A stretch of 54,957 nt of DNA from Bacteroidales bacterium (lineage in GTDB: Bacteria > Bacteroidota > Bacteroidia > Bacteroidales > JAADJA01): assembly GCA_020438135.1 (NCBI GenBank), contig JAGQVF010000047.1, forward strand, positions 1-54,957, read 5' to 3'. The position numbers were made by a program, and so were the translations under genes. The notes under the pieces are model-generated. The model was given only the letters and a program-made list of their open reading frames with translations. It did not search any database and had not been told where the DNA came from. This document shows positions 47,118 to 51,424 of this stretch, piece after piece; the stretch's first letter is position 1; each line of letters opens with the position of its first letter.

Positions 47118-50100
47118 TTAAATCCATTTAACCAGTGGAAAATCCTGCCTGTGCGGAAGATCTTCATGTTTTGGAAATATCCTGAATGCAAAATCAAAAA
47201 CCCCTGATTCAGTTAAATTCAAGGTGCAGGTATAAATGGCATCTCCATTTATAGTTTCTCTTAGATCAAGGCTTTCCAGTTTAATGATCTCTCTCACTTC
47301 ATCGAGCACTTTCTGGCCCAAAACCAGGTCAACCCCCAGATATTTTGGTTCGATCTGATTGGTATTGATTTTAAGTTCGACATCGAAATTTTCTCCCAAC
47401 GAAAGTGGCTTATTTGTAGTATCAGGCAAACGAAGTGATATAACTTCAACGCCGGCCCATTTGTCAACAATGTGATTTTTCCAATCTTTGATTTCCCGTG
47501 CCAACTTATAATTATCTGCCTTAACTTTAGCGGATTGCAGAAACAATTTACTGTAAAACTTATCAAAATAGTCATCGATCATCCGCTTCATGGTAAATCT
47601 TGGAGCAATTTCGACAAGGTTTTTCTTCACCATGGCCATCCACTTATGCGAAACACCCTGTTTGTTTTTTTCGAAATACACATCCAGAATCTCCTCTTCG
47701 AAAAAACGGTAAATAATATCTGCATCCAGTTCATCCTGGAAAGCCTGATTGGCATATGTTTTGGCTTCCGCAACTGCCCAACCGGCATTTTTTACGTAAC
47801 CTTCAGCCCACCAACCATCCAGCACACTCAGGTTGAGAACACCGTTCATGATTGCTTTTTCACCGCTCGTTCCACTGGCTTCGAGGGGTCGTGTGGGTGT
47901 ATTCAACCAAATGTCCACCCCGCTTACCAATTTCCTTGCAACACCCATATCATAATTTTCGAGAAAAAATATTTTACCAATAAAATCGGGCTGCTTCGAT
48001 ATCTCAATAATCTTTTTAATCAGGTCCTGTCCGGGTTTATCATTTGGGTGTGCTTTCCCGGCAAAAACGAATCGCATGGGCCTTTCCGGATCATTCAAAA
48101 GGTCGGCCAGCTTCTTTGTATCGGTAAACAACAAATGCGCTCTTTTGTAGGTTGCAAAACGTCGGGCAAATCCAACATACAAAGCATTTTCGATGATACC
48201 CTCAGTTGACTTATAGATGGTTTGCGGACTCTCCTGCCGCTTTTCAAGATCGCCTACATATTTTTTCTTCAAATAGGCAACAAGTTCGTTTTTTGCTTTT
48301 ACACGCTGGCGCCAGAGAACCGCGTCGGAAATGGTATTGATCTTTTTCCAGGTTTCGCGGTCATGCAGATTTTTACCAAGTTTTGTTTCATAAAATGACA
48401 CAAAATTGGGGGCAGTCCATGTATTAAAATGGATACCGTTGGTTACATAACCGATATGCAATTCTTCCGGATAATATCCTGGATAAAGATTACGGAACAT
48501 ATCCCTGGTTACCCTGCCGTGAATTTTACTTACACCATTGATTTGCTGTGATAGATTGGCAGCAAGGATGCTCATCGAAAATTTTTCAGTAGGGTCACCT
48601 TTTTTATATTTACCGAGATTGATAAATTCAGTCCAGCTAATGTTCAACCTGTCTGGATAATGCGGAATGTAGGTCCTGATAATATCTTCGCTGAAGGTAT
48701 CATGACCGGCCGGAACAGGTGTATGTGTAGTGAATAATGAAGAAGCACGCACAATTTCGAGAGCAACAGAAAATTCCATTCCAAGATTTTCAACCATATG
48801 GCGAAGTCTTTCAACGCCCGCAAAAGCCGCATGACCCTCATTTAAATGATAAAGCGCAGGTTTGATATTGAGCGTATTAAGCAGTCTGACACCACCCACA
48901 CCGAGTAAAAGTTCTTGTTTAAACCTGTTGAACCAGTCGCCGCCATACAAACTATGGGTAATTTCCCGGTCCTCCATGTTGTTTTCTTCGATATCGGTAT
49001 CGAGCAGAAAAAGGCTGACACGTCCGATTTTGAGTTCCCAAACCTTTGCAAACAAGGTTCGTCCGGGAAGGGCAAGGCTTACCATCACCCATTTCTCATC
49101 TTGATCCCTAACCGGCAACAGGGGAAGATCAGTATATTTCTGAGGTTGGTTCTCCGCAATCTGGTCGCCAAACAAGGATATGCTTTGCTCAAAATAACCA
49201 TACCTGTACATCAGGCCTACTCCGGTAATATTTTTATTGGAATCGCTTGCTTCTTTCAAATAATCTCCCGCCAAAATCCCTAGTCCGCCGGAATATGTTT
49301 TTATCGATTCATGCAGACCGTATTCCATACTGAAATATCCGATACTTTCTTCAGGCTTTTCTTTCGGAACACTCAGATAATCCTTAAACTCACGATAAAC
49401 CGAATTCATTCCCGACATGAATTCTGCGTCGGATTTGAGTTCCTGCAATTGCTCGTACGACAGCCTGTTAAGCAATGCAACAGGGTTGTTGGAAGTTGAC
49501 TCCCAAAGTTCTTCATCAATGGAGCGGAATAAATCCTGCGCACGATAACTCCAAGTCCACCAAAGGTTGAAAGAAAGTTCTTTCAATGGGTCCAGTTCGT
49601 CAGGGATCAGTGTACGGACATAAAACTTTTTCCATTCGGGCTTATCAGCTACGCCATTGGTCGGGAAAACATATTCAACCAGCGCTTTTCGCTGAACGAT
49701 ATCGCTTCGCTTATCAGCCAGCGCACAAGATATTGAATACGCTTCGTCATAAGCAGAAGCCAGCAAATTCCATTGGAACTTTTCTGATAATTTAAAAGCT
49801 TCCTGACTCGCTTTTTCTGTTACTTTGGCATCAATTTCTGCAAAATGCCTGATCGAATCAGCAATGTCGCTTGTAAATGAGCTGTAATTTTCTTCGGTTC
49901 GATCAACCACAATGACCGATTTATGATCCACCTTCATTTTTGCCTTTACCCAGGCTCCAAAACCGGCAAGTGTAGTAGTGAGAGTAGGTATCCTGAAAGC
50001 TATACTTTCCAGTGGCGTATAACCCCAGGGTTCATAAAATGAAGGAAATATCGTAAGATCGAAAGCACTCAGAAAATGATAATACTCCAGGTTAAAAATT

Positions 50101-51347
50101 CCATCCGATCCATTCAGGTAAACGGGTACAAACATGATCTTAACCTTACTTCCTGAACCATTGTTGAGGTTGTTCTCCAATATCCGGCTAATTACCGGGT
50201 CGTTAAATTTATCATACAGATTATGGGTAAGATACTCATTGGTTATTGCCTTCTTAAAATCTGTATTATCCATCCTTTTAAGCAGGTCACGGTTGGGTCC
50301 GGATTGATTTGCCGGGACTGCAATGATGGCAAGGATCGTTTTGCCGGCTTTCTTTTCCGAATTGATCTTACTTAAAGCATCGATAAACGCATCTATTCCT
50401 TTGTTTCTGAATTCATACCGACCACTTGTCAGAACCAGCAATGTATCATCATCCAGCTTCTGGTTCATTAGGGCCTGGGCAACATCGAGTATTATTTTGC
50501 GTGATTTGTCGCGGGTTTCCTTTCTTTTATTTTCAGCGGGAGCAAATGAATCAGAGAATCCGTTGGGAGTTATCAAATCGGGTTCACGCTTAAGAAAATA
50601 TTTACACTCTTTTGCAGTAATTTCACTCACTGTGGTAAAACAATCAGCATGCAAAGAGGCATTCAGTTCAAGAGAATACTTTGAAACAACACCGAGTTGC
50701 CTGGCAATTTCCGACGGATTCACTTCAGCAATTTTCGAATATAACGGAATGTTGTTTCCGGCCATTGAACGGCCCAGGATGGTTGCATGGGTCGTAAAAA
50801 CAGTTCCAATCTTGGGTGCATTTTCCTTCAAATACAAAATCCCTGAACCGGTCATCCATTCATGAAACTGGGCAATGACTGCATCGGGTTGCGAAATGTA
50901 AAAATCATAAAAACTTTCAATCACTTTCCCGGCAGCATAACCAAACAAAGCTGGTTCAACATAGTCCCATCCCCCGGTTAACGAATCGAGTTTATAGGTT
51001 TCCCAGAAACCGGCAAAAATCTTATCTTTTTCAGTGAAAAAGGGAGTAAAATCAACCAAAACAGCAACCGGTTTGCCAGGGATGTTCCAACGTCCGATCC
51101 TGATTCGGATACCTTCCTTTTCAGCCTGTATTGTCCAGGAGCGATAAATGGATTTGTCTTCGATGAAATCAGGATTTTCACGGGTTTCTTTCCATACATC
51201 CGGACCAATAAAAATGTATCGGTCATCGTACCCTTTGCTTACCTGCTGGTATTTTGAAGATAATACTGTGTAAATTCCACCGACTTTATTACAAACTTCC
51301 CAACTCGTTTCAAATATCACATTGGGTTTTATAGTATTTTCAGACAT
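47118..51347 (-). CDS. Fused glycogen synthase (GT3) and alpha-glucan phosphorylase (GT35)
   Basis: A 1409-residue cytosolic enzyme with two opposing activities. Residues about 1-560 are a GT3 (eukaryote-type) glycogen synthase: KVGG at 21-24 and the E-x7-E motif FYEPWGYTPLESIAF near 440-450. Residues about 575-1409 are a short-type alpha-glucan phosphorylase. It begins with the DUF3417 segment (LKELSFNLWWTWS), has the central HLNEGHAAF and THTPVPAGHD motifs, and the pyridoxal-phosphate Lys1164 in EASGTSGEKAIMNG. Both halves keep their catalytic motifs. Bacteroides species encode these as neighbouring separate genes, so this is a gene fusion. Its promoter carries the 13-base shared core. A long antisense ORF at 47472-48209 is a shadow. 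Confidence 0.93.
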   Translation of the reverse strand: MSENTIKPNVIFETSWEVCNKVGGIYTVLSSKYQQVSKGYDDRYIFIGPDVWKETRENPDFIEDKSIYRSWTIQAEKEGIRIRIGRWNIPGKPVAVLVDFTPFFTEKDKIFAGFWETYKLDSLTGGWDYVEPALFGYAAGKVIESFYDFYISQPDAVIAQFHEWMTGSGILYLKENAPKIGTVFTTHATILGRSMAGNNIPLYSKIAEVNPSEIARQLGVVSKYSLELNASLHADCFTTVSEITAKECKYFLKREPDLITPNGFSDSFAPAENKRKETRDKSRKIILDVAQALMNQKLDDDTLLVLTSGRYEFRNKGIDAFIDALSKINSEKKAGKTILAIIAVPANQSGPNRDLLKRMDNTDFKKAITNEYLTHNLYDKFNDPVISRILENNLNNGSGSKVKIMFVPVYLNGSDGIFNLEYYHFLSAFDLTIFPSFYEPWGYTPLESIAFRIPTLTTTLAGFGAWVKAKMKVDHKSVIVVDRTEENYSSFTSDIADSIRHFAEIDAKVTEKASQEAFKLSEKFQWNLLASAYDEAYSISCALADKRSDIVQRKALVEYVFPTNGVADKPEWKKFYVRTLIPDELDPLKELSFNLWWTWSYRAQDLFRSIDEELWESTSNNPVALLNRLSYEQLQELKSDAEFMSGMNSVYREFKDYLSVPKEKPEESIGYFSMEYGLHESIKTYSGGLGILAGDYLKEASDSNKNITGVGLMYRYGYFEQSISLFGDQIAENQPQKYTDLPLLPVRDQDEKWVMVSLALPGRTLFAKVWELKIGRVSLFLLDTDIEENNMEDREITHSLYGGDWFNRFKQELLLGVGGVRLLNTLNIKPALYHLNEGHAAFAGVERLRHMVENLGMEFSVALEIVRASSLFTTHTPVPAGHDTFSEDIIRTYIPHYPDRLNISWTEFINLGKYKKGDPTEKFSMSILAANLSQQINGVSKIHGRVTRDMFRNLYPGYYPEELHIGYVTNGIHFNTWTAPNFVSFYETKLGKNLHDRETWKKINTISDAVLWRQRVKAKNELVAYLKKKYVGDLEKRQESPQTIYKSTEGIIENALYVGFARRFATYKRAHLLFTDTKKLADLLNDPERPMRFVFAGKAHPNDKPGQDLIKKIIEISKQPDFIGKIFFLENYDMGVARKLVSGVDIWLNTPTRPLEASGTSGEKAIMNGVLNLSVLDGWWAEGYVKNAGWAVAEAKTYANQAFQDELDADIIYRFFEEEILDVYFEKNKQGVSHKWMAMVKKNLVEIAPRFTMKRMIDDYFDKFYSKLFLQSAKVKADNYKLAREIKDWKNHIVDKWAGVEVISLRLPDTTNKPLSLGENFDVELKINTNQIEPKYLGVDLVLGQKVLDEVREIIKLESLDLRETINGDAIYTCTLNLTESGVFDFAFRIFPKHEDLPHRQDFPLVKWI

Positions 51348-51394
51348 TATATTCAGTTTAAGTATTCAGATACATAAATTCAAAAAACGGGTGC

Positions 51395-51424
51395 AAATAT
51401 ATTCTTTAATTGAGCAATTCAAAA
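51395..51424 (-). promoter_or_regulatory. Promoter of the glycogen fusion gene with shared 13-base core
   Basis: On the minus strand TTTG (plus 51421-51424), 18 bases, then TATATTTG (plus 51395-51402) followed by CACCC. It is identical over 13 bases to the promoters of secDF and rplS. The expected leader is about 40 bases. Confidence 0.65.

Follow-up and report, generated by a model that had tools for sequence, protein, structure and literature searches.

The locus and its reading frame

The window, the whole stretch of 54,957 nucleotides of Bacteroidales DNA that was analysed, carries on its minus strand a single open reading frame (47118-51347) with an ATG start, zero internal stops and 1409 residues, in which a glycogen synthase of family GT3 is followed by an alpha-glucan phosphorylase of family GT35. 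In the whole-genome search the stop-free open frame at this locus amounts to 1415 aa. The features referred to below are as follows.

47118..51347, minus strand: whole fusion gene, 1409 aa, GT3 glycogen synthase, DUF3417 and GT35 alpha-glucan phosphorylase
49722..51347, minus strand: GT3 synthase half, residues 1-542 (PF05693, alignment to GYS1/Gsy2p, AlphaFold)
49650..49721, minus strand: linker, residues 543-566, variable in sequence
47118..49649, minus strand: phosphorylase half, residues 567-1409 (DUF3417 at 581-682, then the catalytic part)
51394..51423, minus strand: weak promoter-like match of the Bacteroidota type, TTTG-N18-TATATTTG, about 47 bases before the start codon
42849-46160, minus strand: tricorn-like S41 protease with beta-propeller repeats, 1103 aa

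The first-pass annotation of this DNA had read one GT3-GT35 polypeptide here, and this is borne out: both families score above their curated cut-offs within one frame, and the coordinates, length, KVGG and E-x7-E motifs and PLP lysine that it gave all proved correct when the frame and the alignment positions were checked. The fusion of a GT3 synthase to a GT35 phosphorylase is thereby confirmed as real. The promoter-like match is suggestive at most, since the window holds four such matches where 3.06 are expected by chance, a count not above chance. The fusion gene is followed by a 203-aa open reading frame without family and then by the tricorn-like protease; in a genome of the same genus (G563) a small frame of 218 codons and a long gene of 1107 codons follow the fusion, and frames of matching sizes and order are seen at the same-genus locus L297. 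A PADLOC search gave no match.

The synthase half

The Pfam profile PF05693 (Glycogen_syn) matches the N-terminal half in two stretches (1.3e-95; 321.8 bits against a cut-off of 27). The KVGG motif lies at residues 21-24 and the E-x7-E glutamates at 439 and 447; E163, H187, R193, R310, K316, E439 and E447 align with E169, H193, R199, R320, K326, E509 and E517 of yeast Gsy2p, in native numbering, once an offset of 20 residues in the chain used for the crystal is subtracted. The roles of these Gsy2p positions (the E-x7-E pair, the nucleotide-sugar and the acceptor residues) are well established for the GT3 family. Most key synthase positions are kept in 93 to 98 of the 98 full-length fused proteins that were aligned, several of which come from isolates (Butyricimonas, Dysgonomonas, Labilibaculum); E447 and H187 are present in all 98, and E439 and K316 in 97 each. 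An inactive synthase half was considered for the window protein and rejected on the conservation of its catalytic residues.

The AlphaFold model of this half (pLDDT 91.7) superimposes on human GYS1 and Gsy2p with TM scores of 0.82-0.89, as against 0.48-0.58 for enzymes of family GT5, and its top match in the PDB is human GYS1 (8z0a, TM 0.87). As modelled, the synthase half has the GT-B fold of the GT3 type. It is about 26% identical to the yeast and human enzymes, with which it has family, fold, catalytic residues and, presumably, the donor UDP-glucose in common, but it differs from them in carrying a C-terminal phosphorylase and in lacking both the tetramer insert and the arginine cluster of the eukaryotic type. 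In the alignment only 14 residues separate positions 357 and 372, compared to 61 in GYS1 and 71 in Gsy2p, and the stretch aligned to the arginine cluster of Gsy2p contains zero arginines. In eukaryotes the insert in this region is linked to tetramer formation, and the arginine cluster senses glucose 6-phosphate. Neither is necessary for membership of the GT3 family. Since both are missing, any control of the fusion must work otherwise than in eukaryotes, whose GT3 enzymes have extra helices for the formation of tetramers (PMC11046441).

The phosphorylase half and the linker

The C-terminal half matches PF11897 (DUF3417, residues 581-682) above its cut-off, PF00343 (Phosphorylase, residues 832-1178) with 112.5 bits against a cut-off of 27, and the NCBIfam profile TIGR02094 with 792 bits against 191.7. 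The PLP lysine motif EASGTSGEKA spans 1156-1165, with K1164 as the lysine; this residue together with H875, N970, the phosphate-site residues R1063 and K1068, and E1156 is invariant in all 98 fused proteins, and the six fall where GT35 enzymes have their glucose, phosphate and PLP positions. Two phosphorylases of solved structure, 9l6i and 20yr, both TIGR02094 chains with DUF3417, align along all of residues 567-1409 and have the PLP lysine and the phosphate-site residues in common with the fusion, but each of them stands free, with a length of about 850-870 aa, whereas here the phosphorylase is joined to a synthase. Loss of catalytic residues in one half was looked for by alignment and found in neither; the earlier statement that both halves are apparently active stands as far as both sets of catalytic residues are conserved, and activity of both is predicted on that basis.

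The distance between anchor positions 541 and 581 is 38-43 residues in each of the 98 proteins, and a single position within 543-580 is invariant. Internal initiation, which would yield a separate phosphorylase, was rejected for the window gene, in which codons 530-600 contain zero ATG and a single TTG (codon 588). Among the aligned fused proteins, 49 of the 98 have a methionine near the junction, and an internal phosphorylase start may exist in such relatives.

Distribution of fused, split and partial forms

The first-pass annotation had implied that the fusion is rare, and proposed to map it in Bacteroidota; the mapping does not bear the rarity out. The synthase half has a match in 349 of 393 genomes of the order Bacteroidales, nearly all of the approximately 150 best listed matches in the order sit in open frames of about 1400-1450 aa, and the 80 relatives returned from named species genomes are all fused. 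Fusion is the norm across Bacteroidales. Phylum-wide, few genomes (21 of 395) have a GT3 synthase, and the TIGR02094 phosphorylases of other classes, among the matches listed, are free-standing in frames of about 700-980 aa. That the fusion is an assembly or sequencing artefact at the domain junction, an error which was looked for and to which a fragmented draft genome (384 contigs, 85.7% complete) might be prone, has practically no probability left, because fused proteins recur independently in the 98 aligned sequences, in a genome of the same genus (G563; 1420-aa frame, synthase half 67% identical) and in the isolates Butyricimonas synergistica DSM 23225, Dysgonomonas species and Labilibaculum filiforme.

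A set of Bacteroidales families has the two enzymes as adjacent genes (loci L141-L161), which encode close homologues of the two halves in the same order, but as two proteins; synthase precedes phosphorylase on one strand with 1-168 nt between them at all 21 loci fetched. A separate neighbouring pair had been ascribed to Bacteroides in the first-pass annotation; its occurrence in other families of the order agrees with that description, and the attribution to Bacteroides is consistent with our result. Unlinked synthase and phosphorylase genes occur in two families (G435/G636 and G480/G580). Other genomes (G398, G496, G497, G724) have a phosphorylase without a synthase. The trees intersperse them with fused lineages, a pattern that speaks for the synthase half having been lost or replaced on separate occasions.

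Several further variants were seen. A free phosphorylase stands alone at L176 and L177 (G398, G515, family f60) and also at L175, L178 and L180. A GT4-like gene lies just upstream of the free phosphorylase in G398 and G724 and might have taken over synthesis. A longer GT3 type (about 615 aa), closer to the GT3 enzymes of other orders, is present in some Bacteroidales (L170, L172, L174), as the sole GT3 found in G465 and G567 and as a second copy beside the fusion in G449. One fused protein (L191:543-4787, G425) has an intact phosphorylase half and a synthase half with K21R, H162Q, R193S, K316E, E439K and P440A, and milder losses of synthase residues occur in the fused L181, L182, L194 and L195. 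Such degenerate relatives are few; together with the count of invariant columns in the 98 fused proteins, 34 in the synthase half versus 125 in the phosphorylase half, they indicate that the synthase half is under looser constraint.

At L200 a GC-rich open frame of 480 codons (1475-2914) lies in frame upstream of the fused gene. A three-part fusion (1891-aa frame) was rejected there, the extra 480 residues having neither a family match nor a neighbour homologue, and a methionine standing at 477; the spurious-looking extension is a warning for automatic annotation.

Probable fission of an older fusion

The separate forms constitute a single clade with support of 100 in the synthase tree, the phosphorylase trees and the RpoB tree, the last of which served as a proxy for the species phylogeny. 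This clade is nested inside the fused forms in the phosphorylase and RpoB trees, which are rooted, and in the RpoB tree both branches that part at the order's deepest split include fused proteins. The careful mixture-model phosphorylase tree rejects a single clade of all fused forms (p-AU 0.010); the quick trees under simpler models do not reject it (p-AU 0.90 for GT3, 0.62 for phosphorylase and 0.26 for RpoB). The GT3 tree leaves the direction of change undecided, because its outgroup is distant and its root region unresolved. From the nesting of the separate clade and the test under the best model we consider it probable that the pair arose by one fission of an old Bacteroidales fusion. A view of the fusion as an odd joining of a Bacteroides-type pair is thus corrected: the fused form is usual, and a later split accounts better for the pair.

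Genomic context and likely sugar donor

At 26 of the 58 testable fused loci, those with at least 4.5 kb of upstream sequence, the fusion gene follows on the same strand an operon of debranching enzyme (GDE_N/GDE_C), GT4 and GH57 genes, and fused loci often have a GH13 branching enzyme in the vicinity. The same-genus genome G563 carries this operon about 4.3 kb upstream of its fusion gene; that of the window's genome sits on another contig (C20). The window's genome also has a GH57 gene and a 673-aa Alpha-amylase_C protein that is a candidate branching enzyme.

No glgC was found above cut-off in the window's genome, although at 85.7% completeness absences in this genome are not proof, and the profile for UDP-glucose pyrophosphorylase (PF01704) is uninformative, as it matched zero control genomes. 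Bacteroidetes are described as being without GlgC in one review (PMC10395257), and Prevotella bryantii is reported to make glycogen from UDP-glucose (cited in PMC7935935 and PMC4432691), by a eukaryote-like synthase (PMC7935935). On the grounds of GT3 membership, the lack of a glgC match over cut-off and the Prevotella biochemistry (PMC7935935), UDP-glucose is likely the donor for the synthase half.

Proposed function and coupling

We give a probability of about 80% to the explanation that the protein is a bifunctional glycogen enzyme with both halves on one particle and with its direction set by metabolites, descended from an old fusion that was once split. The N-terminal half would extend glycogen at its non-reducing ends, with UDP-glucose as the most likely source of the glucose, and the PLP-dependent C-terminal half would use phosphate to remove glucose from the same kind of ends as glucose 1-phosphate. 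A single polypeptide implies synthesis at a 1:1 ratio, which supports the claim of equal amounts in the first-pass annotation, and would place both activities on the same glycogen particle. Net direction would then be set by UDP-glucose versus phosphate and glucose 1-phosphate, contact between the halves possibly sharpening the switch, and control would not run via separate gene expression, phosphorylation or glucose 6-phosphate as in eukaryotes. Functional coupling, as local cycling or switching on one particle, is what we infer from this arrangement. There is little likelihood of classical substrate channelling, since each half works at the non-reducing ends of the polymer and glucose 1-phosphate first needs conversion to a nucleotide sugar by another enzyme.

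A reading with somewhat less than even odds accepts the bifunctional enzyme and disputes only the coupling: two independent enzymes would share a chain and gain equal amounts from it, with neither an allosteric nor a spatial benefit. This is compatible with the variable linker, with the existence of phosphorylase-only and degenerate-synthase relatives, and with the close spacing on one strand of the split clade's genes, which would give near-equal expression without fusion. It fits less well with the retention of the fusion across many families with a linker of near-constant length, which argues for some benefit, and with splitting having occurred apparently once in the sample. How well the split clade has done, and the existence of degenerate relatives, argue in turn that this benefit is not essential; the large size of that clade, the unlinked genes, the phosphorylase-only genomes and L191 indicate that the pathway survives without coupling, and degenerate or lost synthase halves weaken a strict need for it.

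A further reading makes the fusion a self-contained two-way valve on the glycogen particle: through their contact the halves would either exclude each other's reaction or hold the two in deliberate balance. Reserve control of this kind would replace allosteric and covalent regulation and would be ancestral for glycogen metabolism in Bacteroidales; this is a speculative and rather doubtful extension of the bifunctional reading. Less probable again is a device for glycogen cycling, in which both halves would run together and burn energy at carbohydrate excess. The synthase half is without the known eukaryotic off-switches, simultaneous synthesis and breakdown of glycogen is documented for some rumen bacteria such as Fibrobacter and discussed as energy spilling, and Prevotella bryantii is a known spiller with an undefined mechanism (PMC4432691); however, Fibrobacter stands outside Bacteroidales, and many fused forms derive from metagenomes of sediment and water, habitats that are not expected to favour waste.

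Relation to known fusions and significance

A full-text literature search, with most subscription papers outside its scope, returned no description of a GT3-GT35 fusion, and the passages found of a 2024 review give Bacteroidetes GT3 synthases a possible DPANN origin and leave the fusion unmentioned. The joined synthase-phosphorylase architecture, including whether joining matters, is apparently unstudied, and the novelty is limited to this, because the sequences are already in public databases. Other fused glycogen enzymes are the chlamydial GlgA-GlgB and TreS-Mak and the Neisseria GlgB-MalQ proteins, which like the present fusion place two alpha-glucan steps on one chain (PMC7935935; PMC11046441). 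Those proteins join consecutive or cooperating steps, whereas the GT3-GT35 protein joins synthesis and phosphorolysis of the same bond. In the textbook scheme of glycogen control, synthase and phosphorylase are separate, oppositely regulated proteins. Much of Bacteroidales puts both on one chain, including the gut genera Odoribacter, Butyricimonas and Dysgonomonas, and the notion of the separate pair as the original state is revised. Fused proteins and their naturally split relatives offer a clean comparison for glycogen cycling, storage and starvation survival.
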